Source of the DNA: Tetradesmus obliquus
Lineage: Eukaryota > Chlorophyta > Chlorophyceae > Sphaeropleales > Scenedesmaceae
Direction of reading: 5' to 3'
DNA: 64,000 bases
NCBI GenBank assembly: GCA_030272155.1
Contig: CP126195.1
Coordinates: forward strand, 4,633,001-4,697,000
The notes below the pieces were generated by a model. It searched no databases and had not been told where the DNA came from. It saw only the letters and a list, made by a program, of their open reading frames with translations. This document shows, piece after piece, positions 33,037-63,960 of the stretch (positions are counted from its first letter, which is position 1; each line of letters begins with the position of its first letter). The position numbers were made by a program, and so were the translations under genes.

Positions 33037-33308
33037 TCACATGCCAGCCGTGCCGGCCCGAATCTTGATGCGACCATCTGTGCCCACCCTATACAGTTCT
33101 CCCCACTTCTGCCAAAAGTCAACAAGTTTGATCTCAGGCGACCTGCCTTGCAGCCACGCAAACGGTATCCCACAACCCAACCTAACATCTACTTCCACCC
33201 TATCCCATTCCCTCTGAATTTGCTGCCGTAGCTCTGCCAGAAACCTGCACGCCACAGCCTTAGCAGCGTATGATGAGCTGCCCGGCTCGCCAGCTGCAAA
33301 CCGTTGGC

Positions 33309-33347
<39 letters not shown>

Positions 33348-33792
33348 TGTTGTCCTCGGCACCGCCGTTGCTGTGGCTCTGCGATTGCAAACCGCTGCCT
33401 GCATTGCGGCTGCTGCCGCCCTCGCTACCACCCGCACTGGCCACAGTCACGCCAGCCCTGCTGCTGCTGCAGCGCACCACCCAAATGGATTCCAGCAGCA
33501 GCAGACGCAGCTGCGTCCACAACTGCTGCTGCCCTGCTGGCGGCGCCCACACACTGAAGTCATCCAGCAGCAGCAGACGGCTGTTATTAACAGGGACCAC
33601 TGCTCCTGGCTGCACACGCTGCCACACCTGTTGCGCATACCACTGCCACACTGCTGCAGCTATTGGGCACTCCACAAACAAGTGGGTGAGGGTCTCCAGT
33701 TGCTGCGGCTGCTGACACTGCTGTGCTGGGCAGGCAAAGTGAGCCGGCGCGCGCCTGCTGGATGCCAGCATGCGCCGTGCGCCTACCTTCAC
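33037..33792 (-). pseudogene. Truncated LINE C-terminal coding copy
   Basis: This is the left-copy version of the zf-RVT end, cut at its N-terminal side by the duplication junction at 33800, so it starts within VKVGARRMLASSRRAP. It then follows the other copy through CPAQQC, LTHLFVECPIAAAVWQW and the C-terminal DFWQKWGELYRVG. It has lost everything upstream and should be inactive. Confidence 0.8.
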
Positions 33793-33800
33793 TCCTGCAT

Positions 33801-34703
33801 GTCACACGATCATGCAGACAGCCCCGTGCGGGGCAGCCCCGAAAGGCATCCAGGACCTGACCGAGTGCCCAGACTCCACTAAAATCACAGTTACGCAATG
33901 ACGTCCTGTGATGTGCGACAGACCGTGACTGGCCCTTGAAACAAAAGCTGTCCATAGTGTAGCTGTCAGCTATCCACGCATGGTGACTTGCACACCTCTA
34001 AAAGCTGCACCTCACAGGCAGCATTACGACACACACACACAAGACACCTATTTATAGGTGACTGATTGTCGACACAGACAATCACCACCTGTCTATTGAT
34101 AGACTCTCCACTTCAGGCAAAGCATATCCTGCTATTGACCGAACATACCCCTATGAGACATGTGGCATTATGTAAAAAATGACACCAACACAGACACATA
34201 TAACCACACACACAAACTTATCAGCACATGCCTGCACACATCATGATACTCTGCTACCCACACGCATGCATACATAACGTAACCCAGCCATCAACTTAGC
34301 CTTTGCCATTCTATTTTGCAACACATCACAACGAGGAACGACAACCACTACTCCAACGGATGCATTGCATATCCTGCCCGAACCGTCAAAACAGACCACC
34401 ACGCCACCTATAACCGTGCCCAACCCATCACTCACATGCCAGCCGTGCCGGCCCGAATCTTGATGCGACCATCTGTGCCCACCCTATACAGTTCTCCCCA
34501 CTTCTGCCAAAAGTCAACAAGTTTGATCTCAGGCGACCTGCCTTGCAGCCACGCAAACGGTATCCCACAACCCAACCTAACATCTACTTCCACCCTATCC
34601 CATTCCCTCTGAATTTGCTGCCGTAGCTCTGCCAGAAACCTGCACGCCACAGCCTTAGCAGCGTATGATGAGCTGCCCGGCTCGCCAGCTGCAAACCGTT
34701 GGC

Positions 34704-34735
<32 letters not shown>

Positions 34736-35192
34736 TTGCTGTTGTCCTCGGCACCGCCGTTGCTGTGGCTCTGCGATTGCAAACTGCTGCCTGCATTGCG
34801 GCTGCTGCCGCCCTCGCTACCACCCGCACTGGCCACAGTCACGCCAGCCCTGCTGCTGCTGCAGCGCACCACCCAAATGGATTCCAGCAGCAGCAGACGC
34901 AGCTGCGTCCACAACTGCTGCTGCCCTGCTGGCGGCGCCCACACACTGAAGTCATCCAGCAGCAGCAGACGGCTGTTATTAACAGGGACCACTGCTCCTG
35001 GCTGCACACGCTGCCACACCTGTTGCGCATACCACTGCCACACTGCTGCAGCTATTGGGCACTCCACAAACAAGTGGGTGAGGGTCTCCAGTTGCTGCGG
35101 CTGCTGACACTGCTGTGCTGGGCAGGCAAAGTGAGCCGGCGCGCGCCTGCTGGATGCCAGCATGCGCCGTGCGCCTACCTTCACTCCTGCAT
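33801..35192 (-). repeat. Tandem duplication, right copy
   Basis: The right-hand partner of 32406-33800. It joins directly to the rest of the LINE coding region at 35193, so it is the original position and the left copy is the added one on the coding side. Confidence 0.9.
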
Positions 35193-35769
35193 GCAGAAGC
35201 CGCCAGCCAAACACTCGCAGCCGCCTCGGCAGCTGGGTGTCTTTCAGCCTCTGATAACTCGCCACCCAGCGGTGCTGCCTGGCGTTGGCAGCACCCATGG
35301 ATTGAGTGATCGGGTCCAGTAGATCATTGTGTGCTGGGCAGCTGATGCGCTGTTGTTGTTGCTCCTGTTGCTGCCGCTGAGCCGTGACCACTGCTGCTGC
35401 TGTTGCTGCGCGCTGTCTTGGCAGCTCCCGCTCCCTGGACGGATCCATCCAGGACGCATGGTAAGCTGCCATCATAGCTGCATCGCTAAGCCGCTGGCTG
35501 TCACTGCTGCTGCTGCTGCGATTGCCTGGCGCCTCGCTACTTTGCTGCATTTGCTGGAAAGACCGTTTCTGAGCTGCCTCCATCTCCTGCAAGCCGTCCT
35601 GTGGCGCCTCAGCACCCAGGCGGTTGCGCCACAGCCGCGGGCGCATGCCTACACCTGACACCCACCCCTCTTTGCACTGCCGGCTGCATTGCTCCTGCAG
35701 CAGCCTGCATGTTGCCACCTTTGGTGCGCTTTGCAGGTATCTGTTGCGGCAGCTTGCAGACGTGGGCAC
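34432..35769 (-). pseudogene. LINE ORF2 C-terminus (zf-RVT region), 5'-truncated
   Basis: A 445-codon frame. Residues ~150-250 carry the typical plant/algal LINE ending: RLRVFGWRLLHAGVKVGARR, then HFACPAQQC, LETLTHLFVECPIAAAVWQW. This is the zinc-binding knuckle that follows the reverse transcriptase in L1-like elements. The rest is Gln/Ser-rich plus a compact end (CRFLAELRQQIQREW, VDFWQKWGEL). No RT motifs, endonuclease or ORF1 are present, so this is a dead 5'-truncated copy, though its frame is open to the end. Confidence 0.75.
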
Positions 35770-38236: not shown

Positions 38237-40242
38237 CTACAACGTCACGTGGTCTTTGCTCACTTTACATGATGACGCCAGGTGGCTAGGCAGCAGCTGC
38301 AGCATGCCAGACAGCTGCTGCACTGCCGAGAAGTCCAGCCTGACAGGCACATCCAGCCGCACATAGTCCAGCTCAGGCAAGCTGCCAACAGCCCGCAGCA
38401 GCGCAGCTGCACTCTCATCATCCTGCGGGCCCAGCCAAGTCATGTCGCCAACACCGCCGCTGCCACCCCTGTTTTTTGCACCCCAAACAATAGGCCCAAG
38501 GCTAAGCTGCTGCAGATCTGTGAGCGACTGCAGGGCACCTGCAAGCTGCAGCGGTGTAGCGTGCACATACTCTGGCGCCGGGCCAAAGCTGCCACACTCC
38601 AACTGCAGCCGTGTGAGGCCTTGCAGCTTGCCCAACTGCAGCACTGCCTCTGCTGGCAAGCAGCACGACCTCAGAGTCAAGGAGAGCAGCGGTAGCAGCA
38701 CCCATGCTTCCGCAGCCGCCGCTGTTGCCTGTTTGCTGAACTTGTCGTGCTTCAGCCCCACTTCACGCAAACTGCGGAGGCTGCTCAGAATTGCCAGCTC
38801 ACGTGCAGCAGCTTCGGTTGGGTTGCGCAAGCGCAGCTGCGGCTGCTCTAAATGTGCCAGCGTCAACAGCGGCTGACAGCTGAATCCCGCCCCAAACGGA
38901 CGCCACGCTAGGCAAGGAAGGTTTGGCGGCAGCCGGTCATCTAAATTGAAGGGCGCACCGTCAGTACCAGCAAGCCTGGTCAGCGCTGTCAGGTGCGCCA
39001 GCTGCAGCACATCGCCTCGCGTGCCACTTGGGGGCATTTTCAGCTCCAGCTCCTGCAAGTGCTGCGGCTGCAAGTGCCCCAATAGCTTCTGCTCCCCTGA
39101 AAGTCCAACCTGCAGATACGTCAGCTGCTGCAGCTGCGACAGCACTGCAGGCGCATGACGTACCAGCTCTGCCCCTTCTCCTGCAAGGGAGAGGTGCTGC
39201 AGCGCTGGGTAGTTGCCCAGAGCTTCAGACCCTGGAGCAACAAAGGGTTGCTCAAAGCTCAGGCGTGTCAGAGCGTTGGCTGGCAGGTGCTGCAGCAGGA
39301 GATTACCTTGTTTCCAGAAATTGCCCGCAAAATACTGCAGCTGCCATGGCGCAGCAGATGCCGCCGCTGTGCTGGGTTCTGCAGCTGCCGCCGCTGTGCT
39401 GGGTTCTGCAGCTGCCGCCTGCAGTACTGCCACAAGAGGCGAGTACCTGCCATTGCTCACTGGGTTGATGTCCTGCAGCTCAAGGCCCCTGACGATGCTG
39501 CCACGCTGACTCAACCAGTCTGCCAGCAGCACCACCTCGTGATCGTCTTCCCCTGTATCAATCTTCAGGTGCACCTCCTGCAGCTGCCGCGGCAGGTGCT
39601 GCAGGCTGCAGGCACCCAATGTGCAGCTGCGTCAGCTGCTGCAAGCCTGCAAGCGGGGCCAGCGCATCAGGTCATGCTCGTTGCTGCACCCGATGCCAAG
39701 GTGCAGGCGCTGCAGGCCTGACAGAGCTGCAACTGCCTGCATGCTGCCAAGCTGATTAGCTGTGGACGCCAAGCTCTGGGAGCAAACGGCTGCACGCAAC
39801 TGCGTCAGCTGCTGCACTGGAAGCTGCAGCAGGATGTCAGGGTCTGCACTGATGCCGCTAAGCCTGAGTGACTGCAGCTGCAGGCTCCCAGCTGCTGCGG
39901 CCTGCTGCAGCACAGCCTTCAGCTGGTCAATGGTGGCTGAGCAGCTGTAGCCATTTGGTCTGTATTTGCAATGGCGTATGCTGTAATGTGGTACGTCCAC
40001 CTGGACATCCAGCGCCCACAGCAGGCCTGCATGCTGCTGCAGCCATTGCAGGAAGCTGTCAGCCTGCCGGCGCTGCGAGCTGGGCACGACCTTGATGCGG
40101 AACGCTACTGCAAGCTGGCCCCTCACCAGCACTGTGATGGATGCCCAAAGCTGCTTTGACGTCTGCAGCAGCGCTGCAACCAGCTGCTGGCCTTGGCTGA
40201 TGCTGGGTTGGCACAGCAGCACCTCCAACACTGAATGCTGCA

Positions 40243-46109: not shown

Positions 46110-46832
46110 CAGCTGGGCATGGTACAAACGTAGCATCTGCATTTTGCAACAAATCAACACAGCTTGCAAGCAGACAGCCATGCTGGCATAGCAACCTGCT
46201 GTACGTGGCAGGCACAGTAAGGCACAGCTGCCAGTGCTGCTGCTTTGGTTTGCTTGCATCCCAACTGCACAGCAGGGCCCCCACCTGCCAGCAGCAGCAG
46301 CTTCAAACTGCTAGTAATTTTGAGCTCCAGAATTCGCCTTGATCACACAAGAAGGATGTTTGCAGGAGACTGTGTGGAATACTAGTCCTCAACAAACTCT
46401 GTGCAGCCACACTAGCTGCACGCGCGCAGCAGCTGCCGGTGGGCCTGAAGCGGTGTTGCGCACTTTGTAACAGATATGACAGTTGAAACTGTATGTGCAG
46501 CGCACAGCGCCAAGCAGCAGAGCGCAACAGCAGCGGCAGGGCACTTGGCACACCAGAACTGCAGTGCCTGATCAGCCAGCAAGGGAAGCCCAGAAGTAGT
46601 ACATTACACATCAAAACATGTTGCAGGCAGCAGCACCCACAGCAACACTCTACAGCGCAAGTTAACATATGTAACAGTCGAGTCGGGGCACTTCAAGGCA
46701 ACGTGTTTTTAGCTCTTTTCTTGCAGCACACTGTGCCACTGCTAACAGCTCAAATTGATTTAGATTCGTCGTTGAAAGCTTGACATTTATATGTAGGCCA
46801 CTTGTTCGCTACGTTTGTACCATGCCCAGCTG
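46110..46832 (+). mobile_element. X element copy 1 (array left border)
   Basis: A 723-base element with a 25-base perfect terminal inverted repeat beginning CAGCTGGGCATGGTACAAAC. Open frames inside are short and on both strands, with no domain, so it looks non-coding. In the internal copies the repeat is extended by TCT outside (AGA on the other side), and the outside sequences are the ends of module M. At this copy the left flank is unrelated DNA (gctcgaagc), so this is the array's left edge. No direct target duplication is seen at any copy. X may be a terminal region of the larger unit rather than an independent insertion. Confidence 0.85.
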
Positions 46833-46940
46833 AGACCGGTCAAACTCCATGATGCCGCAGGCTGTTGTTTGACCTGACCAGTTACTTCTGTTCACACTGC
46901 TGCTAGAAGCACAGCTAACATATCCATACGTTTTGGATTC

Positions 46941-49144
46941 ATGCCTGCAGGGGGGCTGTCCATGGTGCGCAAGCACTCTTCAGGATGGAAGAGCAACCGC
47001 AGCACCACGGCCATGAGGGTGGCGGCGGTGGTGTGTGTGATAATGGCTTTGACCACAGCTGACGAAAAGTTTACGCCCGCATATTATTACAGAGAGCAGT
47101 ACCCTGACTACGCCAAGGAGGTACACGGGGACCTGAACCGGTTCTGCAAACTTCATCACAAGAACTTCACAGCAAACGGCACAGTGGCTACACCCAAGCA
47201 TGGCGGCAGGCCCTCAAATGTCCCACATGCTGTCGCCTTCCATGCCAGCACAATATTCAAGGCTGGCAAGGTGGTAAAGGCCTACCCATCTGCAGATTCA
47301 AAGAGAAAGGTTGATGTGCACGTGTGGTGGACTTCAATCGAAGTCGCATGTCAGGAAAATGACACACTGCGCCAGCTGTGCACTGACTACAACATCACAC
47401 CCAAGAGACTGCTGAAGTACATGAAATGGGCTGACCCCGACCTGGTGCGCAGGAGAATAGATGTGAAGCTGGACTTGACAAAGATACAGAAACAAAGGCG
47501 AAAGGCAGCAGCTGCGGCGCTGTGGCAGAAGTACCAAAGTGACCCCGACATGCTGCAGCGCATATATTTCATTGATGAGTGCAAATTCTGGATGTCAGAC
47601 CTGGCAGGCGGCTCCGTCAAGGTCTATTGTGATGCACACGATGAAAACGTGCATGCTGTGCTGCCATGCAAATGGATGCGCAAGGGCAAGGACGCAGAGC
47701 CGGTCAAGTTGCACTTTGTCTGCGCCGTCAACGCTGTGCACGGGCCCGTCTACTGCAAGTTTGTCACCGGCACAACAGACAACAAGGACCATGCTGGCAA
47801 CCTCAATGTACCGTACATGGTGAGTGTGCGCTGCTACTGCGCAGGCGCCTGCCATCGAAAGACATGCCAGCCCTGCTGTACTGTGTAGTAACAGTCCCGC
47901 AGTGCTTTTTTTAGTGCTGTAGTGAAGCTGCAGCGCTGCCCGTCCTCTGCTGTGAACATAACAGCAGAGTAACTTGGTGACAGTACAACGACACCACCTG
48001 CAACAGCAAGCTGGAAACCAATGTGCAAGGATTGGTGCATGTCACATCCGTGCGTGCTCACGCGCAGCACACTGCCCCCTGGCTGCAGCCAGTTGTCATA
48101 TGCTGCAGCGCAGAACTCAAAGTCGCGCTCCAGCACCTGCTGCCTGCTGCTGCTGTAATAACCCTTGTCATGACATGAGCCATCAGCTTGAATCAGCATG
48201 TTGTGCTGTGCATGGAGGAAATCAATCCCCCCATCCCACCAGTCCACTGCTACCTGAGCACACATACTGCTGCTGATGCCTAACCAGTACAGCATGCACA
48301 CCAGCTGCTCCTCGCTTGTGTGCATGTAGCCCATGCATGTGCCAACCATATCAGCCAGCACACATGCACACATCTTGCAATGAAGCGCTGCTGCTGTGGC
48401 GACTGCACGCGGCGCGCAGAACTTGAAGTGCTGCACACCTGGCAAGCAGCCAGTCAAGCCCCAGAACAATCTCTGCCCCCTCATAGACTTGGTGATGTAT
48501 CTGACCTTGTCTGCACTGAGCCTGATGTAGAAGCGTCCCATCGCATCCATCCGCACCGCTGCGTTGCGCTCCTGCGCTGCTAACAAGGCTGCGCGCTGCC
48601 AATCCGGCAATTCTTGCACCTGCAGTTGAAGGACAAACCAACCCAGCAGGCCAAGAGCATGACTCAGCTGGAGTTTGTTCACTGCATGATGGACGTCAAA
48701 GACATAGCCAACCAACAGCAGGCGCAGCGCGGCACTACGCCGCTGTACATCTTTGACAACCCAAGTGTTCACCTGGGGAAGGATGGCCTACAGATGTTGG
48801 TTGCAGGTGGCATCAATGAAGATCAACTGCTGCACATTGCACCCTACTCCCCAGATTTCAACAAGCCCATTGAACATGCATTTGGCAGCCTCAAAGCAGC
48901 CTTCCGCAACTACTTGTATAACAGCTGCCAGCTGGGTGGTGCTGATGTGAAGCCGCGAGACCTGCAGCGCGGCCTGTACAACACCTTTATGAAGATCACA
49001 GCTGCATCTGTCATGGCTGATGTATTGAAGCTGCCAGATTTGTGGAACATGGTGCGCAGCCGCAAGAGGAGTCTTTGTGTGTGCCGAGACGGGAAGCAGC
49101 GCCGCGGCACTGCTGGCGACTACCCCAGGAAAGACCAGCGCTGA
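46941..49144 (+). CDS. Tc1/mariner-IS630 superfamily transposase, two exons (copy 1)
   Basis: Exons 46941-47819 and 48626-49144 join in phase 0 (ATG/GTGAGT ... CTGCAG) to give 465 residues. The catalytic triad is visible: IYFIDECKFWM (first Asp, exon 1), LYIFDNPSVH (second Asp) and PYSPDFNKPIEHAFGSLK (Glu). There are 38 residues between second Asp and Glu, so DD38E. The SPDFN-PIEH-F-LK block is the hallmark of this superfamily. The N-terminal ~200 residues are basic and helical and should include the DNA-binding region. The start could also be the inner MVRKHSSGWK at residue 8. A TGTAA near 49554 may end the transcript. The intron is about 806 bases and holds the antisense nuclease-like frame. 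All domains are intact, so the copy may be active. Known members cut and paste DNA at TA dinucleotides, but I found no TA target duplication here. Confidence 0.85.
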
Positions 49145-49328
49145 GTCTGCTGTTGTGCTGCTGCATGGCATGTAGGGATTGTGGCTGTCAGCTGCATGCA
49201 AGATGGCTGGCCAGCAGTGCACAGGGTGTCACTCAGATAGCCCTTGAGCTCACCTGTTTGAGGGCACCTGCGCTTGTCGCCGTCCTGCATGTTCGCACCG
49301 CCCGGGGCTTGGGAGGTGCTGGCACCAT
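47834..49328 (-). CDS. Antisense zinc-ribbon/Vsr-like nuclease gene interleaved with the transposase (copy 1)
   Basis: The main exon 47834-48619 encodes 261 residues and fills the transposase intron almost end to end, its stop lying 15 bases from the transposase donor. A short exon 49254-49328 starts with ATG (MVPAPPKPRAVRT), ends KQ/GTGAGC, and joins in phase 0 to VQELPDWQRAALLAAQERNA. The 634-base intron would contain transposase exon 2. Visible features of the main exon: a Cys cluster FKFCAP and ALHCKMCAC (residues ~66-86); HTSEEQLVCMLYWLGI (~100-115); GGIDFLHAQHNMLIQADGSC (~130-149), the D-x(n)-(E/Q)-x-D pattern of Vsr/DUF559-type PD-(D/E)XK nucleases, with Gln where Glu is usual; LERDFEFCAAAYDNWL; GGSVLRVSTHGCDMH; and GGVVVLSPSYSAVM. 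Nuclease identity is by pattern only. The short exon is less certain than the main frame. Confidence 0.55.
48620..48625. other. Palindromic CTGCAG used as splice acceptor on both strands
   Basis: On plus, CTGCAG precedes transposase exon 2 at 48626. On minus, the same six bases precede the nuclease-like exon at 48619. Because the site is a perfect palindrome, each strand reads a CAG acceptor. Equivalent sites are at 52902-52907, 57163-57168 and 61466-61471. Confidence 0.55.
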
Positions 49329-50391
49329 GCTGCTGTAGGGTGGTTACTTCCTGGTGTTCACCTGAGAGCGAGTGTGGGAACAAAATGGCATGTTCAGAAG
49401 CTTATTGTATGAGTAAACTACATGTGGATGTTGTGCTTTGGTGCTCAGACTTGTCAGGAGTGGTTCCTGCTTCAAACGACTGCTGCAAGGCAGCACGGCA
49501 CTTGGTGCCCATTTCACATACAGGCATTTGCAGTCATGCTGAATTGCCTAATGTAATGGTAAAATTCCTGACATAATTCAACTACGCTCGTAGCTCTTGA
49601 ACATGGCTCCTGCTGCTGTCACTCGCGTTGGTTGTGACGACTGTTGGCCTGCCAAGCGATATGCACGGAGCCTGCAAGAAACCTTGCGGTCGATTAACTG
49701 TTAAATTTGATGATTGATTTAAGCATGGCTTGAGCCGAAATAAACTGCGATATGGTGAAGAACTTCAAGACGGAAAGGTGCCCTGAAACAAGCCTGCTCC
49801 GAGCCACACAGCTGCCACGCTGCCAACTTATCATCGTCGACACATTATGCAACGTACCTTTGGTTGAAGCAGAAAACCAATCCTGACGGGCCCTCGCAAG
49901 CCCACGTTGCAGGTGAGCCTGACGGGTCAACACGGATGTCCAGAGCACTGCAGCTCGATCGCGTTGCTGCAGCACCTGCATACAATTTGTTTTGAACATT
50001 GAACGACGTTAAACACAGCGCAGTGCTGAAAGGCTTCGCCAAAAAATTAGGTGGCAGCAGTGAGGCACCTGCTGGCACATGCTGCTGCTGTCACGCCCAC
50101 CAACAACTGCAGTTGAAAAACACATGCCACCGTGATTCACAGCACACATAGCTGTAACGTTTCCTGTTGTCTGCTGCTGCTGCTGCTCCTGCCCAGGCAG
50201 ATATCATATATTGCAAACAGTGCTACTGCCGCAGTAAAATCAGCTGCATACCCAGCAGCAGCAGGAGCACATCAGCCATAGCATAAAAAGGTAGGTGTGC
50301 ACTTCAGGCACCAAGTCCAGGAACAGCAACAGAAGGGATGCAGTGCAGGCTAAGAACTGCTGCAGCAAAGGCTGGCATGCAATCACAGTCT

Positions 50392-51114
50392 CAGCTGGGC
50401 ATGGTACAAACGTAGCATCTGCATTTTGCAACAAATCAACACAGCTTGCAAGCAGACAGCCATGCTGGCATAGCAACCTGCTGTACGTGGCAGGCACAGT
50501 AAGGCACAGCTGCCAGTGCTGCTGCTTTGGTTTGCTTGCATCCCAACTGCACAGCAGGGCCCCCACCTGCCAGCAGCAGCAGCTTCAAACTGCTAGTAAT
50601 TTTGAGCTCCAGAATTCGCCTTGATCACACAAGAAGGATGTTTGCAGGAGACTGTGTGGAATACTAGTCCTCAACAAACTCTGTGCAGCCACACTAGCTG
50701 CACGCGCGCAGCAGCTGCCGGTGGGCCTGAAGCGGTGTTGCGCACTTTGTAACAGATATGACAGTTGAAACTGTATGTGCAGCGCACAGCGCCAAGCAGC
50801 AGAGCGCAACAGCAGCGGCAGGGCACTTGGCACACCAGAACTGCAGTGCCTGATCAGCCAGCAAGGGAAGCCCAGAAGTAGTACATTACACATCAAAACA
50901 TGTTGCAGGCAGCAGCACCCACAGCAACACTCTACAGCGCAAGTTAACATATGTAACAGTCGAGTCGGGGCACTTCAAGGCAACGTGTTTTTAGCTCTTT
51001 TCTTGCAGCACACTGTGCCACTGCTAACAGCTCAAATTGATTTAGATTCGTCGTTGAAAGCTTGACATTTATATGTAGGCCACTTGTTCGCTACGTTTGT
51101 ACCATGCCCAGCTG
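50392..51114 (+). mobile_element. X element copy 2
   Basis: Same 723 bases as copy 1, same orientation, offset 4282. Left flank is the M1 end (cacagtct), right flank the M2 start (agaccggtc). Confidence 0.9.
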
Positions 51115-51222
51115 AGACCGGTCAAACTCCATGATGCCGCAGGCTGTTGTTTGACCTGACCAGTTACTTCTGTTCACACTGCTGCTAGAAGCACAGCTAA
51201 CATATCCATACGTTTTGGATTC

Positions 51223-53426
51223 ATGCCTGCAGGGGGGCTGTCCATGGTGCGCAAGCACTCTTCAGGATGGAAGAGCAACCGCAGCACCACGGCCATGAGG
51301 GTGGCGGCGGTGGTGTGTGTGATAATGGCTTTGACCACAGCTGACGAAAAGTTTACGCCCGCATATTATTACAGAGAGCAGTACCCTGACTACGCCAAGG
51401 AGGTACACGGGGACCTGAACCGGTTCTGCAAACTTCATCACAAGAACTTCACAGCAAACGGCACAGTGGCTACACCCAAGCATGGCGGCAGGCCCTCAAA
51501 TGTCCCACATGCTGTCGCCTTCCATGCCAGCACAATATTCAAGGCTGGCAAGGTGGTAAAGGCCTACCCATCTGCAGATTCAAAGAGAAAGGTTGATGTG
51601 CACGTGTGGTGGACTTCAATCGAAGTCGCATGTCAGGAAAATGACACACTGCGCCAGCTGTGCACTGACTACAACATCACACCCAAGAGACTGCTGAAGT
51701 ACATGAAATGGGCTGACCCCGACCTGGTGCGCAGGAGAATAGATGTGAAGCTGGACTTGACAAAGATACAGAAACAAAGGCGAAAGGCAGCAGCTGCGGC
51801 GCTGTGGCAGAAGTACCAAAGTGACCCCGACATGCTGCAGCGCATATATTTCATTGATGAGTGCAAATTCTGGATGTCAGACCTGGCAGGCGGCTCCGTC
51901 AAGGTCTATTGTGATGCACACGATGAAAACGTGCATGCTGTGCTGCCATGCAAATGGATGCGCAAGGGCAAGGACGCAGAGCCGGTCAAGTTGCACTTTG
52001 TCTGCGCCGTCAACGCTGTGCACGGGCCCGTCTACTGCAAGTTTGTCACCGGCACAACAGACAACAAGGACCATGCTGGCAACCTCAATGTACCGTACAT
52101 GGTGAGTGTGCGCTGCTACTGCGCAGGCGCCTGCCATCGAAAGACATGCCAGCCCTGCTGTACTGTGTAGTAACAGTCCCGCAGTGCTTTTTTTAGTGCT
52201 GTAGTGAAGCTGCAGCGCTGCCCGTCCTCTGCTGTGAACATAACAGCAGAGTAACTTGGTGACAGTACAACGACACCACCTGCAACAGCAAGCTGGAAAC
52301 CAATGTGCAAGGATTGGTGCATGTCACATCCGTGCGTGCTCACGCGCAGCACACTGCCCCCTGGCTGCAGCCAGTTGTCATATGCTGCAGCGCAGAACTC
52401 AAAGTCGCGCTCCAGCACCTGCTGCCTGCTGCTGCTGTAATAACCCTTGTCATGACATGAGCCATCAGCTTGAATCAGCATGTTGTGCTGTGCATGGAGG
52501 AAATCAATCCCCCCATCCCACCAGTCCACTGCTACCTGAGCACACATACTGCTGCTGATGCCTAACCAGTACAGCATGCACACCAGCTGCTCCTCGCTTG
52601 TGTGCATGTAGCCCATGCATGTGCCAACCATATCAGCCAGCACACATGCACACATCTTGCAATGAAGCGCTGCTGCTGTGGCGACTGCACGCGGCGCGCA
52701 GAACTTGAAGTGCTGCACACCTGGCAAGCAGCCAGTCAAGCCCCAGAACAATCTCTGCCCCCTCATAGACTTGGTGATGTATCTGACCTTGTCTGCACTG
52801 AGCCTGATGTAGAAGCGTCCCATCGCATCCATCCGCACCGCTGCGTTGCGCTCCTGCGCTGCTAACAAGGCTGCGCGCTGCCAATCCGGCAATTCTTGCA
52901 CCTGCAGTTGAAGGACAAACCAACCCAGCAGGCCAAGAGCATGACTCAGCTGGAGTTTGTTCACTGCATGATGGACGTCAAAGACATAGCCAACCAACAG
53001 CAGGCGCAGCGCGGCACTACGCCGCTGTACATCTTTGACAACCCAAGTGTTCACCTGGGGAAGGATGGCCTACAGATGTTGGTTGCAGGTGGCATCAATG
53101 AAGATCAACTGCTGCACATTGCACCCTACTCCCCAGATTTCAACAAGCCCATTGAACATGCATTTGGCAGCCTCAAAGCAGCCTTCCGCAACTACTTGTA
53201 TAACAGCTGCCAGCTGGGTGGTGCTGATGTGAAGCCGCGAGACCTGCAGCGCGGCCTGTACAACACCTTTATGAAGATCACAGCTGCATCTGTCATGGCT
53301 GATGTATTGAAGCTGCCAGATTTGTGGAACATGGTGCGCAGCCGCAAGAGGAGTCTTTGTGTGTGCCGAGACGGGAAGCAGCGCCGCGGCACTGCTGGCG
53401 ACTACCCCAGGAAAGACCAGCGCTGA
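51223..53426 (+). CDS. DDE transposase, copy 2
   Basis: Exons 51223-52101 and 52908-53426. The predicted protein is the same as copy 1 with the DD38E triad and both splice sites kept. Confidence 0.85.
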
Positions 53427-53610
53427 GTCTGCTGTTGTGCTGCTGCATGGCATGTAGGGATTGTGGCTGTCAGCTGCATGCAAGATGGCTGGCCAGCAGT
53501 GCACAGGGTGTCACTCAGATAGCCCTTGAGCTCACCTGTTTGAGGGCACCTGCGCTTGTCGCCGTCCTGCATGTTCGCACCGCCCGGGGCTTGGGAGGTG
53601 CTGGCACCAT
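52116..53610 (-). CDS. Antisense nuclease-like gene, copy 2
   Basis: Main exon 52116-52901, short ATG exon 53536-53610. Same predicted protein and layout as copy 1. Confidence 0.55.
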
Positions 53611-54673
53611 GCTGCTGTAGGGTGGTTACTTCCTGGTGTTCACCTGAGAGCGAGTGTGGGAACAAAATGGCATGTTCAGAAGCTTATTGTATGAGTAAAC
53701 TACATGTGGATGTTGTGCTTTGGTGCTCAGACTTGTCAGGAGTGGTTCCTGCTTCAAACGACTGCTGCAAGGCAGCACGGCACTTGGTGCCCATTTCACA
53801 TACAGGCATTTGCAGTCATGCTGAATTGCCGAATGTAATGGTAAAATTCCTGACATAATTCAACTACGCTCGTAGCTCTTGAACATGGCTCCTGCTGCTG
53901 TCACTCGCGTTGGTTGTGACGACTGTTGGCCTGCCAAGCGATATGCACGGAGCCTGCAAGAAACCTTGCGGTCGATTAACTGTTAAATTTGATGATTGAT
54001 TTAAGCATGGCTTGAGCCGAAATAAACTGCGATATGGTGAAGAACTTCAAGACGGAAAGGTGCCCTGAAACAAGCCTGCTCCGAGCCACACAGCTGCCAC
54101 GCTGCCAACTTATCATCGTCGACACATTATGCAACGTACCTTTGGTTGAAGCAGAAAACCAATCCTGACGGGCCCTCGCAAGCCCACGTTGCAGGTGAGC
54201 CTGACGGGTCAACACGGATGTCCAGAGCACTGCAGCTCGATCGCGTTGCTGCAGCACCTGCATACAATTTGTTTTGAACATTGAACGACGTTAAACACAG
54301 CGCAGTGCTGAAAGGCTTCGCCAAAAAATTAGGTGGCAGCAGTGAGGCACCTGCTGGCACATGCTGCTGCTGTCACGCCCACCAACAACTGCAGTTGAAA
54401 AACACATGCCACCGTGATTCACAGCACACATAGCTGTAACGTTTCCTGTTGTCTGCTGCTGCTGCTGCTCCTGCCCAGGCAGATATCATATATTGCAAAC
54501 AGTGCTACTGCCGCAGTAAAATCAGCTGCATACCCAGCAGCAGCAGGAGCACATCAGCCATAGCATAAAAAGGTAGGTGTGCACTTCAGGCACCAAGTCC
54601 AGGAACAGCAACAGAAGGGATGCAGTGCAGGCTAAGAACTGCTGCAGCAAAGGCTGGCATGCAATCACAGTCT

Positions 54674-55396
54674 CAGCTGGGCATGGTACAAACGTAGCGA
54701 ACAAGTGGCCTACATATAAATGTCAAGCTTTCAACGACGAATCTAAATCAATTTGAGCTGTTAGCAGTGGCACAGTGTGCTGCAAGAAAAGAGCTAAAAA
54801 CACGTTGCCTTGAAGTGCCCCGACTCGACTGTTACATATGTTAACTTGCGCTGTAGAGTGTTGCTGTGGGTGCTGCTGCCTGCAACATGTTTTGATGTGT
54901 AATGTACTACTTCTGGGCTTCCCTTGCTGGCTGATCAGGCACTGCAGTTCTGGTGTGCCAAGTGCCCTGCCGCTGCTGTTGCGCTCTGCTGCTTGGCGCT
55001 GTGCGCTGCACATACAGTTTCAACTGTCATATCTGTTACAAAGTGCGCAACACCGCTTCAGGCCCACCGGCAGCTGCTGCGCGCGTGCAGCTAGTGTGGC
55101 TGCACAGAGTTTGTTGAGGACTAGTATTCCACACAGTCTCCTGCAAACATCCTTCTTGTGTGATCAAGGCGAATTCTGGAGCTCAAAATTACTAGCAGTT
55201 TGAAGCTGCTGCTGCTGGCAGGTGGGGGCCCTGCTGTGCAGTTGGGATGCAAGCAAACCAAAGCAGCAGCACTGGCAGCTGTGCCTTACTGTGCCTGCCA
55301 CGTACAGCAGGTTGCTATGCCAGCATGGCTGTCTGCTTGCAAGCTGTGTTGATTTGTTGCAAAATGCAGATGCTACGTTTGTACCATGCCCAGCTG
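54674..55396 (-). mobile_element. X element copy 3, inverted; centre of a palindrome
   Basis: Reverse orientation of copies 1 and 2. Its left flank is gcaatcacagtct and its right flank agactgtgattgc, that is, the same M end facing inwards from both sides. M2 and inverted M3 therefore form a large palindrome around it, with arms of 3559 bases. Confidence 0.9.
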
Positions 55397-56459
55397 AGAC
55401 TGTGATTGCATGCCAGCCTTTGCTGCAGCAGTTCTTAGCCTGCACTGCATCCCTTCTGTTGCTGTTCCTGGACTTGGTGCCTGAAGTGCACACCTACCTT
55501 TTTATGCTATGGCTGATGTGCTCCTGCTGCTGCTGGGTATGCAGCTGATTTTACTGCGGCAGTAGCACTGTTTGCAATATATGATATCTGCCTGGGCAGG
55601 AGCAGCAGCAGCAGCAGACAACAGGAAACGTTACAGCTATGTGTGCTGTGAATCACGGTGGCATGTGTTTTTCAACTGCAGTTGTTGGTGGGCGTGACAG
55701 CAGCAGCATGTGCCAGCAGGTGCCTCACTGCTGCCACCTAATTTTTTGGCGAAGCCTTTCAGCACTGCGCTGTGTTTAACGTCGTTCAATGTTCAAAACA
55801 AATTGTATGCAGGTGCTGCAGCAACGCGATCGAGCTGCAGTGCTCTGGACATCCGTGTTGACCCGTCAGGCTCACCTGCAACGTGGGCTTGCGAGGGCCC
55901 GTCAGGATTGGTTTTCTGCTTCAACCAAAGGTACGTTGCATAATGTGTCGACGATGATAAGTTGGCAGCGTGGCAGCTGTGTGGCTCGGAGCAGGCTTGT
56001 TTCAGGGCACCTTTCCGTCTTGAAGTTCTTCACCATATCGCAGTTTATTTCGGCTCAAGCCATGCTTAAATCAATCATCAAATTTAACAGTTAATCGACC
56101 GCAAGGTTTCTTGCAGGCTCCGTGCATATCGCTTGGCAGGCCAACAGTCGTCACAACCAACGCGAGTGACAGCAGCAGGAGCCATGTTCAAGAGCTACGA
56201 GCGTAGTTGAATTATGTCAGGAATTTTACCATTACATTCGGCAATTCAGCATGACTGCAAATGCCTGTATGTGAAATGGGCACCAAGTGCCGTGCTGCCT
56301 TGCAGCAGTCGTTTGAAGCAGGAACCACTCCTGACAAGTCTGAGCACCAAAGCACAACATCCACATGTAGTTTACTCATACAATAAGCTTCTGAACATGC
56401 CATTTTGTTCCCACACTCGCTCTCAGGTGAACACCAGGAAGTAACCACCCTACAGCAGC

Positions 56460-57954
56460 ATGGTGCCAGCACCTCCCAAGCCCCGGGCGGTGCGAACATG
56501 CAGGACGGCGACAAGCGCAGGTGCCCTCAAACAGGTGAGCTCAAGGGCTATCTGAGTGACACCCTGTGCACTGCTGGCCAGCCATCTTGCATGCAGCTGA
56601 CAGCCACAATCCCTACATGCCATGCAGCAGCACAACAGCAGACTCAGCGCTGGTCTTTCCTGGGGTAGTCGCCAGCAGTGCCGCGGCGCTGCTTCCCGTC
56701 TCGGCACACACAAAGACTCCTCTTGCGGCTGCGCACCATGTTCCACAAATCTGGCAGCTTCAATACATCAGCCATGACAGATGCAGCTGTGATCTTCATA
56801 AAGGTGTTGTACAGGCCGCGCTGCAGGTCTCGCGGCTTCACATCAGCACCACCCAGCTGGCAGCTGTTATACAAGTAGTTGCGGAAGGCTGCTTTGAGGC
56901 TGCCAAATGCATGTTCAATGGGCTTGTTGAAATCTGGGGAGTAGGGTGCAATGTGCAGCAGTTGATCTTCATTGATGCCACCTGCAACCAACATCTGTAG
57001 GCCATCCTTCCCCAGGTGAACACTTGGGTTGTCAAAGATGTACAGCGGCGTAGTGCCGCGCTGCGCCTGCTGTTGGTTGGCTATGTCTTTGACGTCCATC
57101 ATGCAGTGAACAAACTCCAGCTGAGTCATGCTCTTGGCCTGCTGGGTTGGTTTGTCCTTCAACTGCAGGTGCAAGAATTGCCGGATTGGCAGCGCGCAGC
57201 CTTGTTAGCAGCGCAGGAGCGCAACGCAGCGGTGCGGATGGATGCGATGGGACGCTTCTACATCAGGCTCAGTGCAGACAAGGTCAGATACATCACCAAG
57301 TCTATGAGGGGGCAGAGATTGTTCTGGGGCTTGACTGGCTGCTTGCCAGGTGTGCAGCACTTCAAGTTCTGCGCGCCGCGTGCAGTCGCCACAGCAGCAG
57401 CGCTTCATTGCAAGATGTGTGCATGTGTGCTGGCTGATATGGTTGGCACATGCATGGGCTACATGCACACAAGCGAGGAGCAGCTGGTGTGCATGCTGTA
57501 CTGGTTAGGCATCAGCAGCAGTATGTGTGCTCAGGTAGCAGTGGACTGGTGGGATGGGGGGATTGATTTCCTCCATGCACAGCACAACATGCTGATTCAA
57601 GCTGATGGCTCATGTCATGACAAGGGTTATTACAGCAGCAGCAGGCAGCAGGTGCTGGAGCGCGACTTTGAGTTCTGCGCTGCAGCATATGACAACTGGC
57701 TGCAGCCAGGGGGCAGTGTGCTGCGCGTGAGCACGCACGGATGTGACATGCACCAATCCTTGCACATTGGTTTCCAGCTTGCTGTTGCAGGTGGTGTCGT
57801 TGTACTGTCACCAAGTTACTCTGCTGTTATGTTCACAGCAGAGGACGGGCAGCGCTGCAGCTTCACTACAGCACTAAAAAAAGCACTGCGGGACTGTTAC
57901 TACACAGTACAGCAGGGCTGGCATGTCTTTCGATGGCAGGCGCCTGCGCAGTAG
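56460..57954 (+). CDS. Antisense nuclease-like gene, copy 3 (inverted)
   Basis: Plus-strand short ATG exon 56460-56534 and main exon 57169-57954, same predicted protein as copy 1. Confidence 0.55.
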
Positions 57955-58847
57955 CAGCGCACACTCACCATGTACGGTACATTGAGGTTGCCAGCATGGT
58001 CCTTGTTGTCTGTTGTGCCGGTGACAAACTTGCAGTAGACGGGCCCGTGCACAGCGTTGACGGCGCAGACAAAGTGCAACTTGACCGGCTCTGCGTCCTT
58101 GCCCTTGCGCATCCATTTGCATGGCAGCACAGCATGCACGTTTTCATCGTGTGCATCACAATAGACCTTGACGGAGCCGCCTGCCAGGTCTGACATCCAG
58201 AATTTGCACTCATCAATGAAATATATGCGCTGCAGCATGTCGGGGTCACTTTGGTACTTCTGCCACAGCGCCGCAGCTGCTGCCTTTCGCCTTTGTTTCT
58301 GTATCTTTGTCAAGTCCAGCTTCACATCTATTCTCCTGCGCACCAGGTCGGGGTCAGCCCATTTCATGTACTTCAGCAGTCTCTTGGGTGTGATGTTGTA
58401 GTCAGTGCACAGCTGGCGCAGTGTGTCATTTTCCTGACATGCGACTTCGATTGAAGTCCACCACACGTGCACATCAACCTTTCTCTTTGAATCTGCAGAT
58501 GGGTAGGCCTTTACCACCTTGCCAGCCTTGAATATTGTGCTGGCATGGAAGGCGACAGCATGTGGGACATTTGAGGGCCTGCCGCCATGCTTGGGTGTAG
58601 CCACTGTGCCGTTTGCTGTGAAGTTCTTGTGATGAAGTTTGCAGAACCGGTTCAGGTCCCCGTGTACCTCCTTGGCGTAGTCAGGGTACTGCTCTCTGTA
58701 ATAATATGCGGGCGTAAACTTTTCGTCAGCTGTGGTCAAAGCCATTATCACACACACCACCGCCGCCACCCTCATGGCCGTGGTGCTGCGGTTGCTCTTC
58801 CATCCTGAAGAGTGCTTGCGCACCATGGACAGCCCCCCTGCAGGCAT
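56644..58847 (-). CDS. DDE transposase, copy 3 (inverted)
   Basis: Minus-strand exons 57969-58847 and 56644-57162, same protein as copy 1. Confidence 0.85.
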
Positions 58848-58955
58848 GAATCCAAAACGTATGGATATGTTAGCTGTGCTTCTAGCAGCAGTGTGAACAG
58901 AAGTAACTGGTCAGGTCAAACAACAGCCTGCGGCATCATGGAGTTTGACCGGTCT

Positions 58956-59678
58956 CAGCTGGGCATGGTACAAACGTAGCGAACAAGTGGCCTACATATA
59001 AATGTCAAGCTTTCAACGACGAATCTAAATCAATTTGAGCTGTTAGCAGTGGCACAGTGTGCTGCAAGAAAAGAGCTAAAAACACGTTGCCTTGAAGTGC
59101 CCCGACTCGACTGTTACATATGTTAACTTGCGCTGTAGAGTGTTGCTGTGGGTGCTGCTGCCTGCAACATGTTTTGATGTGTAATGTACTACTTCTGGGC
59201 TTCCCTTGCTGGCTGATCAGGCACTGCAGTTCTGGTGTGCCAAGTGCCCTGCCGCTGCTGTTGCGCTCTGCTGCTTGGCGCTGTGCGCTGCACATACAGT
59301 TTCAACTGTCATATCTGTTACAAAGTGCGCAACACCGCTTCAGGCCCACCGGCAGCTGCTGCGCGCGTGCAGCTAGTGTGGCTGCACAGAGTTTGTTGAG
59401 GACTAGTATTCCACACAGTCTCCTGCAAACATCCTTCTTGTGTGATCAAGGCGAATTCTGGAGCTCAAAATTACTAGCAGTTTGAAGCTGCTGCTGCTGG
59501 CAGGTGGGGGCCCTGCTGTGCAGTTGGGATGCAAGCAAACCAAAGCAGCAGCACTGGCAGCTGTGCCTTACTGTGCCTGCCACGTACAGCAGGTTGCTAT
59601 GCCAGCATGGCTGTCTGCTTGCAAGCTGTGTTGATTTGTTGCAAAATGCAGATGCTACGTTTGTACCATGCCCAGCTG
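58956..59678 (-). mobile_element. X element copy 4, inverted; centre of a second palindrome
   Basis: Flanked on the left by gaccggtct and on the right by agaccggtc, so the M starts face each other across it: inverted M3 to the left, direct M4 to the right. X copies 3 and 4 are both reversed, as expected if the block X-M-X was inverted as one piece. Confidence 0.9.
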
Positions 59679-59786
59679 AGACCGGTCAAACTCCATGATG
59701 CCGCAGGCTGTTGTTTGACCTGACCAGTTACTTCTGTTCACACTGCTGCTAGAAGCACAGCTAACATATCCATACGTTTTGGATTC

Positions 59787-61990
59787 ATGCCTGCAGGGGG
59801 GCTGTCCATGGTGCGCAAGCACTCTTCAGGATGGAAGAGCAACCGCAGCACCACGGCCATGAGGGTGGCGGCGGTGGTGTGTGTGATAATGGCTTTGACC
59901 ACAGCTGACGAAAAGTTTACGCCCGCATATTATTACAGAGAGCAGTACCCTGACTACGCCAAGGAGGTACACGGGGACCTGAACCGGTTCTGCAAACTTC
60001 ATCACAAGAACTTCACAGCAAACGGCACAGTGGCTACACCCAAGCATGGCGGCAGGCCCTCAAATGTCCCACATGCTGTCGCCTTCCATGCCAGCACAAT
60101 ATTCAAGGCTGGCAAGGTGGTAAAGGCCTACCCATCTGCAGATTCAAAGAGAAAGGTTGATGTGCACGTGTGGTGGACTTCAATCGAAGTCGCATGTCAG
60201 GAAAATGACACACTGCGCCAGCTGTGCACTGACTACAACATCACACCCAAGAGACTGCTGAAGTACATGAAATGGGCTGACCCCGACCTGGTGCGCAGGA
60301 GAATAGATGTGAAGCTGGACTTGACAAAGATACAGAAACAAAGGCGAAAGGCAGCAGCTGCGGCGCTGTGGCAGAAGTACCAAAGTGACCCCGACATGCT
60401 GCAGCGCATATATTTCATTGATGAGTGCAAATTCTGGATGTCAGACCTGGCAGGCGGCTCCGTCAAGGTCTATTGTGATGCACACGATGAAAACGTGCAT
60501 GCTGTGCTGCCATGCAAATGGATGCGCAAGGGCAAGGACGCAGAGCCGGTCAAGTTGCACTTTGTCTGCGCCGTCAACGCTGTGCACGGGCCCGTCTACT
60601 GCAAGTTTGTCACCGGCACAACAGACAACAAGGACCATGCTGGCAACCTCAATGTACCGTACATGGTGAGTGTGCGCTGCTACTGCGCAGGCGCCTGCCA
60701 TCGAAAGACATGCCAGCCCTGCTGTACTGTGTAGTAACAGTCCCGCAGTGCTTTTTTTAGTGCTGTAGTGAAGCTGCAGCGCTGCCCGTCCTCTGCTGTG
60801 AACATAACAGCAGAGTAACTTGGTGACAGTACAACGACACCACCTGCAACAGCAAGCTGGAAACCAATGTGCAAGGATTGGTGCATGTCACATCCGTGCG
60901 TGCTCACGCGCAGCACACTGCCCCCTGGCTGCAGCCAGTTGTCATATGCTGCAGCGCAGAACTCAAAGTCGCGCTCCAGCACCTGCTGCCTGCTGCTGCT
61001 GTAATAACCCTTGTCATGACATGAGCCATCAGCTTGAATCAGCATGTTGTGCTGTGCATGGAGGAAATCAATCCCCCCATCCCACCAGTCCACTGCTACC
61101 TGAGCACACATACTGCTGCTGATGCCTAACCAGTACAGCATGCACACCAGCTGCTCCTCGCTTGTGTGCATGTAGCCCATGCATGTGCCAACCATATCAG
61201 CCAGCACACATGCACACATCTTGCAATGAAGCGCTGCTGCTGTGGCGACTGCACGCGGCGCGCAGAACTTGAAGTGCTGCACACCTGGCAAGCAGCCAGT
61301 CAAGCCCCAGAACAATCTCTGCCCCCTCATAGACTTGGTGATGTATCTGACCTTGTCTGCACTGAGCCTGATGTAGAAGCGTCCCATCGCATCCATCCGC
61401 ACCGCTGCGTTGCGCTCCTGCGCTGCTAACAAGGCTGCGCGCTGCCAATCCGGCAATTCTTGCACCTGCAGTTGAAGGACAAACCAACCCAGCAGGCCAA
61501 GAGCATGACTCAGCTGGAGTTTGTTCACTGCATGATGGACGTCAAAGACATAGCCAACCAACAGCAGGCGCAGCGCGGCACTACGCCGCTGTACATCTTT
61601 GACAACCCAAGTGTTCACCTGGGGAAGGATGGCCTACAGATGTTGGTTGCAGGTGGCATCAATGAAGATCAACTGCTGCACATTGCACCCTACTCCCCAG
61701 ATTTCAACAAGCCCATTGAACATGCATTTGGCAGCCTCAAAGCAGCCTTCCGCAACTACTTGTATAACAGCTGCCAGCTGGGTGGTGCTGATGTGAAGCC
61801 GCGAGACCTGCAGCGCGGCCTGTACAACACCTTTATGAAGATCACAGCTGCATCTGTCATGGCTGATGTATTGAAGCTGCCAGATTTGTGGAACATGGTG
61901 CGCAGCCGCAAGAGGAGTCTTTGTGTGTGCCGAGACGGGAAGCAGCGCCGCGGCACTGCTGGCGACTACCCCAGGAAAGACCAGCGCTGA
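59787..61990 (+). CDS. DDE transposase, copy 4
   Basis: Exons 59787-60665 and 61472-61990, same protein as copy 1. Confidence 0.85.
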
Positions 61991-62174
61991 GTCTGCTGTT
62001 GTGCTGCTGCATGGCATGTAGGGATTGTGGCTGTCAGCTGCATGCAAGATGGCTGGCCAGCAGTGCACAGGGTGTCACTCAGATAGCCCTTGAGCTCACC
62101 TGTTTGAGGGCACCTGCGCTTGTCGCCGTCCTGCATGTTCGCACCGCCCGGGGCTTGGGAGGTGCTGGCACCAT
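60680..62174 (-). CDS. Antisense nuclease-like gene, copy 4
   Basis: Main exon 60680-61465, short ATG exon 62100-62174, same layout as copy 1. Confidence 0.55.
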
Positions 62175-63237
62175 GCTGCTGTAGGGTGGTTACTTCCTGG
62201 TGTTCACCTGAGAGCGAGTGTGGGAACAAAATGGCATGTTCAGAAGCTTATTGTATGAGTAAACTACATGTGGATGTTGTGCTTTGGTGCTCAGACTTGT
62301 CAGGAGTGGTTCCTGCTTCAAACGACTGCTGCAAGGCAGCACGGCACTTGGTGCCCATTTCACATACAGGCATTTGCAGTCATGCTGAATTGCCGAATGT
62401 AATGGTAAAATTCCTGACATAATTCAACTACGCTCGTAGCTCTTGAACATGGCTCCTGCTGCTGTCACTCGCGTTGGTTGTGACGACTGTTGGCCTGCCA
62501 AGCGATATGCACGGAGCCTGCAAGAAACCTTGCGGTCGATTAACTGTTAAATTTGATGATTGATTTAAGCATGGCTTGAGCCGAAATAAACTGCGATATG
62601 GTGAAGAACTTCAAGACGGAAAGGTGCCCTGAAACAAGCCTGCTCCGAGCCACACAGCTGCCACGCTGCCAACTTATCATCGTCGACACATTATGCAACG
62701 TACCTTTGGTTGAAGCAGAAAACCAATCCTGACGGGCCCTCGCAAGCCCACGTTGCAGGTGAGCCTGACGGGTCAACACGGATGTCCAGAGCACTGCAGC
62801 TCGATCGCGTTGCTGCAGCACCTGCATACAATTTGTTTTGAACATTGAACGACGTTAAACACAGCGCAGTGCTGAAAGGCTTCGCCAAAAAATTAGGTGG
62901 CAGCAGTGAGGCACCTGCTGGCACATGCTGCTGCTGTCACGCCCACCAACAACTGCAGTTGAAAAACACATGCCACCGTGATTCACAGCACACATAGCTG
63001 TAACGTTTCCTGTTGTCTGCTGCTGCTGCTGCTCCTGCCCAGGCAGATATCATATATTGCAAACAGTGCTACTGCCGCAGTAAAATCAGCTGCATACCCA
63101 GCAGCAGCAGGAGCACATCAGCCATAGCATAAAAAGGTAGGTGTGCACTTCAGGCACCAAGTCCAGGAACAGCAACAGAAGGGATGCAGTGCAGGCTAAG
63201 AACTGCTGCAGCAAAGGCTGGCATGCAATCACAGTCT

Positions 63238-63960
63238 CAGCTGGGCATGGTACAAACGTAGCATCTGCATTTTGCAACAAATCAACACAGCTTGCAAGCA
63301 GACAGCCATGCTGGCATAGCAACCTGCTGTACGTGGCAGGCACAGTAAGGCACAGCTGCCAGTGCTGCTGCTTTGGTTTGCTTGCATCCCAACTGCACAG
63401 CAGGGCCCCCACCTGCCAGCAGCAGCAGCTTCAAACTGCTAGTAATTTTGAGCTCCAGAATTCGCCTTGATCACACAAGAAGGATGTTTGCAGGAGACTG
63501 TGTGGAATACTAGTCCTCAACAAACTCTGTGCAGCCACACTAGCTGCACGCGCGCAGCAGCTGCCGGTGGGCCTGAAGCGGTGTTGCGCACTTTGTAACA
63601 GATATGACAGTTGAAACTGTATGTGCAGCGCACAGCGCCAAGCAGCAGAGCGCAACAGCAGCGGCAGGGCACTTGGCACACCAGAACTGCAGTGCCTGAT
63701 CAGCCAGCAAGGGAAGCCCAGAAGTAGTACATTACACATCAAAACATGTTGCAGGCAGCAGCACCCACAGCAACACTCTACAGCGCAAGTTAACATATGT
63801 AACAGTCGAGTCGGGGCACTTCAAGGCAACGTGTTTTTAGCTCTTTTCTTGCAGCACACTGTGCCACTGCTAACAGCTCAAATTGATTTAGATTCGTCGT
63901 TGAAAGCTTGACATTTATATGTAGGCCACTTGTTCGCTACGTTTGTACCATGCCCAGCTG
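63238..63960 (+). mobile_element. X element copy 5
   Basis: Direct orientation, complete, flanked by the M4 end and the start of M5. Confidence 0.9.

Follow-up and report, generated by a model that had tools for sequence, protein, structure and literature searches.

The closest described counterpart of the element reported here is KolobokP, a DNA transposon of animals whose long-terminal-direct-repeat design is, according to its authors, unlike that of other DNA transposons (Kojima and Bao, 2022; PMC9587614). In the parts of that description drawn on here, the long terminal direct repeats (LTDRs) carry short terminal inverted repeats (TIRs) of their own and seem to have been excised, the internal region (INT) encodes a DDD/E transposase and, on the complementary strand, a nuclease, and LTDR-INT-LTDR elements, solo LTDRs, (LTDR-INT)n-LTDR multimers and INT-INT forms occur inside one set of target site duplications (TSDs). 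Cuts by the nuclease were proposed to drive multimerisation, in a model that the authors themselves call speculative (PMC9587614). Here we analyse a window (the whole stretch of DNA examined, 64,000 nt) of contig CP126195.1 of the green alga Tetradesmus obliquus, together with searches of the 104.7-Mb genome (17 contigs), and describe a composite-like transposon, built of S modules and B units, in which a transposase gene and a putative nuclease gene lie interlocked on opposite strands.

Other known systems share single features with this element. Its transposase resembles those of the IS630-Tc1-mariner group (Zator, pogo, Sailor), within which Zator has been placed, in its DDE_3 match, its DD38E triad and an SPDxNxPIEH block, whereas 3-bp duplications, the S-B-S organisation and the antisense accessory gene set it apart from that group as outlined in the sections consulted (PMC7386202, PMC8533490). 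A mariner-like transposase and an endonuclease are joined in one element in the families of Bao and Jurka (2013), but these have GIY-YIG or EcoRII-type nucleases and TA TSDs, the sections consulted describe no S-like modules, and the word "antisense" is absent from the main text (PMC3627910). Sola1-1_Ec32, a DNA transposon of the alga Ectocarpus, also has an accessory gene opposite the transposase strand, but it belongs to another superfamily, carries ParB-like and DNA methyltransferase domains and has no intron nesting described in the portion of the account used (PMC12477816). Our search of the open-access literature on antisense, nested or accessory-nuclease transposons returned no intron-nested antisense nuclease of the present kind; the element belongs to a known kind, the composite-like DNA transposons with a complementary-strand nuclease, and for its exon-interlocked layout that search showed no precedent.

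Gene models and their interlocked layout

The transposase gene lies on the forward strand. Its exon 1 (46941..47819), an open frame of 293 codons with 17 homologues, carries the first catalytic aspartate, D212, and ends at a GTGAGT donor that is kept across subfamilies; exon 2 (48626..49144), with 13 homologues, carries D337, E376 and an SPDFNKPIEH block, and the joined exons encode 465 amino acids with D212, D337 and E376. The intron between them (47820..48625; 806 bp, phase 0, GTGAGT...CTGCAG) is filled on the reverse strand by exon 2 of the putative nuclease gene (47834..48619), which comprises 261 codons and a stop within a frame of 317 open codons from stop to stop, and encodes a Cys/His cluster followed by an E103/D133/Q144-x-D146-G147/H150/D166 pattern. 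Nuclease exon 1 (49254..49328, reverse strand) consists of an ATG and 75 nt (25 codons) with the donor CAG|GTGAGC, and joins onto position 48619 in phase 0 across an intron (48620..49253) that encloses transposase exon 2. The palindrome CTGCAG at 48620..48625 would serve as the acceptor of both genes, one per strand. Each gene has an exon inside the intron of its partner, and the coding exons of the two do not overlap; the splicing of both models is predicted from sequence.

This layout is found again in diverged copies within the same genome. A second subfamily (arrays on C13, C4, C10 and C14, and copies on C6) encodes nucleases 55-58% identical to that of the window at the four loci read (L076, L077, L080 and L081), and a distant lineage with two copies on C16 (L079) encodes one that is 29% identical. 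The transposase intron lies at the matching position in all of these, and the CTGCAG acceptor is kept in the window family and at all four subfamily-2 loci, the nuclease acceptor thus being present in L076, L077, L080 and L081 and the nuclease donor in L076, L077 and L081. L079 lacks CTGCAG, its transposase acceptor being CATTGCAG. The antisense frame, the short ATG exon and the mutual nesting of exons had all been recognised in the initial annotation, and coordinates and diverged loci bear out each of them.

It had further been suggested that double-stranded RNA would be limited to intronic sequence, and this holds for the coding exons but not securely for the transcripts as a whole. TGTAA, which we take to be the algal poly(A) signal, occurs past the transposase stop at 49552 and 50153, the first of these beyond nuclease exon 1, and on the nuclease strand only at 47087, inside transposase exon 1. 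Because these positions lie in or beyond the partner's exons, an RNA overlap confined to introns is not secure, and the untranslated ends probably overlap exons of the partner.

Conservation of the antisense frame

The length of the antisense frame is by itself only suggestive of a gene: in dinucleotide-preserving shuffles of the intron (n = 3000) the mean length of the longest open frame was 129 codons, and in 3 of the 3000 it reached 260 or more. Stronger evidence comes from 19 homologous predicted proteins of public genomes and metagenomes (31-92% identity, E 6e-20 or better), several of them named very-short-patch-repair endonuclease at the source, and some near enough to copies in the host genome for them to stem from this species or one closely related to it. 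Alignment A1, of the window protein with 17 of the 19 (P0004 and P0017 omitted), contains 18 invariant columns among its 18 sequences; a second alignment, A2, holds the window protein and 15 of the 19. At the diverged loci read, the nuclease frame stands antisense beside transposase exon 1, within the intron at the corresponding position. In L081 the nuclease is open and the transposase exons are broken, and in L078 both genes are damaged. Since 19 homologues exist and diverged copies in the same genome keep the antisense position, the frame represents a real conserved gene, and these homologues and open diverged frames rule out a chance frame in stop-poor, CTG-rich sequence. For the 19 homologues themselves the antisense layout would follow solely from three contig sizes with a common source (3563, 2947 and 9808) that nuclease and transposase matches share, where 0.14 such would be expected; a search of viral contigs, genome contigs and plasmids for DNA of the nuclease relatives found none.

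Nuclease exon 1 was searched for in L076-L078 and L080-L083. Its ATG, 75-nt length and AG|GTGAGC donor recur at three of the four subfamily-2 loci (L076, L077 and L081). Between the window and L076 the nucleotide identity is 52/75 in exon 1, 52/100 upstream and 57/99 in the intron beyond, and the differences within the exon fall on the three codon positions 6, 9 and 8 times, which is uninformative. The N-terminus of homologue P0017, MPRLRREHITVRTHSSSTSAGAVIQ followed by VS, appears to be the same 25-codon exon 1 read on into the donor.

The S-B element and its arrays

The two genes lie in a larger structure that the initial annotation had missed and that suggests a function. An S module of 723 bp with 25-bp TIRs alternates with a B unit of 3559 bp that bears both genes, and self-comparison together with TIR positions gives the order S1+ B1+ S2+ B2+ S3- B3- S4- B4+ S5+ in the window. 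The array begins at S1 (46110..46832, forward), whose flanking AGC duplication matches the right array end beyond the window, and runs through B1 (46833..50391, forward, with the genes described above), S2 (50392..51114, forward), B2 (51115..54673, forward, a second copy of both genes), the inverted S3 (54674..55396), B3 (55397..58955, an inverted copy of both genes) and S4 (58956..59678), B4 (59679..63237, forward, the fourth copy) and S5 (63238..63960, forward), past which it continues to C5:4713368. All four copies of both nuclease exons are identical; the array contains long identical repeats, and array lengths are given as assembled. Within window positions 46110-64000 the orientation of S relative to B varies, as it would if segments flipped between the inverted 25-bp ends or if S were excised and inserted again.

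Across the genome the element takes the forms S-B-S, solo S and (S-B)n-S. Of 280 candidate nuclease copies in the genome, 146 were scored, which makes the copy counts lower bounds; 132 of the scored copies form 15 clusters, each with 2 to 27 members (neighbours less than 12 kb apart), and 14 are single, although the C6 pair, spaced 7.6 kb, may not be tandem. Among 117 copy spacings, 78 measure 4280-4282, as with an S between the units, and 28 measure 3561-3564, as without one. Both outer ends could be read for nine insertions (S-B-S monomers and arrays, four of each, and one solo S), and all nine are flanked by 3-bp duplications (AGC, TCA, TTG, GGG, TAC, GTT, ATC, TAA and CAT; L075, whose right end was not included, is left out of this count). 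As these outer TSDs persist around arrays, array growth would take place inside one insertion. The S module of the second subfamily shows 72% identity, which indicates that S and B diverged together.

One B-B junction without S was read (L074, G000:C5:1163150-1163260): it reads AGTCT-CAG-AGACC, with a 3-nt remnant, as if S had been excised, and the CAG resembles what we take to be the 3-nt footprints of mariner-type excision. The S termini of the second subfamily (L094 and L096, in the regions of G000:C13:1051350 and C4:125100) are CAGTGGGG and CACTAGGC; they recall CACTA-type ends with 3-bp TSDs, though the transposase is DDE_3-like.

Comparison with KolobokP

The element shares with KolobokP terminal repeats that bear TIRs, solo repeats (here S), multimers, internal units joined directly to each other, terminal repeats that seem to have been excised and TSDs at the outer ends, and it too has, on the complementary strand of its internal region, a gene for a putative nuclease. 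In KolobokP the transposase is of the Kolobok type and the nuclease, a His-Me finger (I-PpoI-like) protein, is encoded downstream of it, with TSDs of 3-5 bp, according to the parts of the description drawn on (PMC9587614), whereas the algal element combines a DDE_3-type transposase with a putative DUF559/Vsr-like nuclease inside the transposase intron, an interlocked exon 1 and TSDs of 3 bp. Since the two differ in the type of transposase, in the nuclease family, in the TSD and in the nesting within an intron, they are probably of independent origin.

Class of the transposase

Window exon 2 matches Pfam DDE_3 at E 6.8e-5 and 23.2 bits, under the cut-off of 28.6, which its relative L076 passes with 28.9 bits; the Pfam scan of the L079 transposase gave no DDE_3 match. 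The catalytic triad is D-124-D-38-E (D212, D337, E376) and aligns in L076 and L079. The Tc1/mariner assignment of the initial annotation stands as far as this DDE_3-like triad goes, but strict Tc1/mariner identity is ruled out by the 3-bp target duplications, seven of nine of which lack the TA expected for that group (TA occurs only in TAC and TAA). Zator, too, has a TSD of 3 bp. The Pfam scans returned DDE_3 and nothing akin to Kolobok, though no side-by-side comparison with Kolobok proteins was made.

Nature of the antisense protein

The residues E103, D133-F, D146-G, H150 and D166 are conserved or nearly so and form a pattern like the E...DF...DG..H...RD of DUF559 (PF04480) and Vsr, from which the protein differs in a Gln for the usual Glu, in an extra N-terminal Cys/His cluster and in scores under the cut-off. 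The cysteines and histidines concerned are conserved residues of its N-terminal half. DUF559 is the only Pfam family that matches more than one of 18 family members (12 of 18, best E 0.0074, sub-threshold); the window protein scores 13.7 bits against a curated cut-off of 20.6. Single members gave single weak matches to other families, one of them better than DUF559 (DUF6239, E 0.0049), and no HNH or His-Me family is among the seven Pfam families that any of the 18 members matched. Searched genome-wide, DUF559 hits six places, each at E 2.9, all within this nuclease family and none over the cut-off. Sequence searches of the PDB found nothing credible, and those of NCBIfam and PHROGs nothing useful. 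The best local match to Vsr, which is not significant, places D133 on Vsr position 51. The antisense protein would be classed as a Vsr/DUF559-like PD-(D/E)XK nuclease, as the initial annotation had it, with a predicted zinc-binding cluster; the residue pattern behind that assignment is conserved, but DUF559 and Vsr scores stay below threshold, and the nuclease label seems well motivated at the level of inference.

Selection between subfamilies

The ratio of nonsynonymous to synonymous rates (dN/dS) was measured between the window family and the second subfamily, at four loci for each gene; L079 was excluded as its synonymous change is saturated. The nuclease gives values of 0.52-0.55, the two transposase exons values of 0.26-0.47. 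Within the nuclease, synonymous change exceeds nonsynonymous change significantly (p 1.2e-4 and 2.7e-4 in the pair of comparisons to which the test was applied). Synonymous divergence (dS) in L081 (G000:C6:5539500-5542010) is mosaic, about 0.61 from L076 in exon 1, 0.084 in the nuclease and 0.147 in exon 2, which suggests recombination between subfamilies.

Proposed mechanism and its rivals

We suggest that the transposase moves S-ended units and that breaks made by the antisense nuclease promote the growth of arrays, a reading towards which our judgement leans, if only slightly. The transposase would mobilise any segment with S termini, even a lone S, while the nuclease would cut S or its palindromic junctions; repair of the cut from a neighbouring S, with unequal exchange, would add B-S units, as proposed for KolobokP. 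Arrays would grow in this way by unequal exchange between direct S repeats within one insertion. Nesting in the transposase intron would tie the two genes together, as deletion of one would tend to break the other, and in the young window family the nuclease may no longer be needed copy by copy and could drift.

Several results weigh against this proposal. At position 144, where the second acidic residue is usually Glu, every aligned member has Gln. An hhalign comparison with a Vsr profile (built on E. coli Vsr with as many as 80 relatives) gave a probability below 1%, the AlphaFold models built from A1 and A2 are poor (pLDDT 50.7 and 51.2), and Foldseek, a check that the initial annotation had put forward, found no match at E 0.001 or better with the second, low-confidence model. 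Nuclease exon 1 was not found in L080, nor in the alignment of L079, where an in-frame ATG near the start of the frame may make a separate exon 1 unnecessary.

The recent evolution of the nuclease adds to these points. Twenty distinct haplotypes of the young family were compared, drawn from 22 loci out of 25 selected (gaps or truncation led to the omission of L088, L092 and L093, and the damaged L078 stood outside the 25). In the nuclease, 6 changes are synonymous, 37 nonsynonymous and 1 nonsense, against 25 synonymous and 30 nonsynonymous in the transposase (6:38 versus 25:30, Fisher p 9e-4). The synonymous share expected without selection is 0.21-0.28, so that 6/44 in the nuclease is neutral or slightly beyond (p 0.02-0.12 for shares of 0.22-0.28), and 7 of the 37 nonsynonymous changes fall in conserved columns where 6.2 are expected, that is, at the chance rate. 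Three haplotypes, present at four sites that include arrays, carry Asn in place of D133, a residue that never varies in A1. Antisense stops beside an intact transposase, which the initial annotation had named as evidence against the gene, are not seen between subfamilies, where the frame is open (as in L081), but within the young family 14 of 146 nuclease copies carry a stop and none of the 134 scored genome copies of transposase exon 1 does. Most of these stops (11 TGA on C17 and 2 TAA on C16) lie near codon 255, about seven residues from the end (codon 255 as read in L019 and L029), and a single early one lies at codon 53 (C6, L092/L098); their reading as a sign of nuclease decay has been cut back, since 13 of the 14 shorten the frame by only seven residues. 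As stop- and D133N-bearing copies have spread and been amplified, neither spread nor amplification requires a fully intact nuclease in cis. The dN/dS check proposed at the outset is thus favourable between subfamilies but not within the young window family, where the nuclease, long kept, appears to evolve near-neutrally and to be drifting or diversifying.

These observations give weight to a serious rival, ordinary unequal crossing-over between S repeats, in which the nuclease gene would be real but a passive or obsolete cargo. Near-neutral recent evolution, the chance rate of change in conserved columns and the amplification of stop- and D133N-bearing copies all agree with it; long-term constraint, and retention of the gene in both diverged lineages read (55-58% and 29% nuclease identity), do not, and we regard it as rather unlikely on balance. 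Less probable still, though it would account for the spread of copies with a damaged nuclease through action in trans, is that the nuclease aids transposition itself, in excision, end processing, target cutting or repair choice; its co-inheritance with transposase and S fits such a role, but to our knowledge the DDE transposases of known cut-and-paste elements need no second nuclease.

The complete nesting, the common acceptor palindrome and the probable overlap of untranslated ends could also be taken to mean that the antisense unit acts mainly as RNA, tuning the splicing or silencing of the transposase, with protein coding secondary. Conservation at the protein level, invariant motif residues and a dN/dS below 1 across subfamilies make this very improbable. 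We give hardly any credence to the frame being an accident of stop-poor, CTG-rich sequence, for which the 129-codon average of the shuffles and the 3 in 3000 that reach 260 could be cited, as it is contradicted by the 19 homologues and by diverged subfamilies with the same frame open.

Other repeats in the genome and the window

At G000:C16:1031874-1130298, beside the L079 copy itself, a fragment corresponding to residues 1-149 of the L079-type transposase is repeated at least 59 times at a spacing of about 1689 bp, apparently as an array of an internally deleted derivative. Within the window, positions 32405-35193 hold a segment of about 1.4 kb duplicated in tandem (99.5% identity), and 8930-9762 and 39387-40225 form an inverted similar pair (77% identical) with weaker pieces nearby.

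Implications

Returning to nuclease-promoted array growth, we propose, tentatively and with somewhat more doubt than belief, that composite-like DNA transposons armed with a nuclease evolved independently a second time in the lineage of this element, in which the interlocked gene pair binds transposition and nuclease-induced array growth into one unit. With the same repeats, multimers and putative complementary-strand nuclease but other enzymes, in an apparently unrelated element, the speculation made for KolobokP would become a comparative test, with two lineages and one predicted mechanism. The interlocked exons provide a clean natural case of opposite-strand genes that keep their coding exons apart, and the interlock offers a reason why the two genes stay together, as the loss of either by deletion would in most cases harm its partner. 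If the proposal is true, the combination of a nuclease with long direct repeats could be a general route from a transposon to chromosome-scale arrays.

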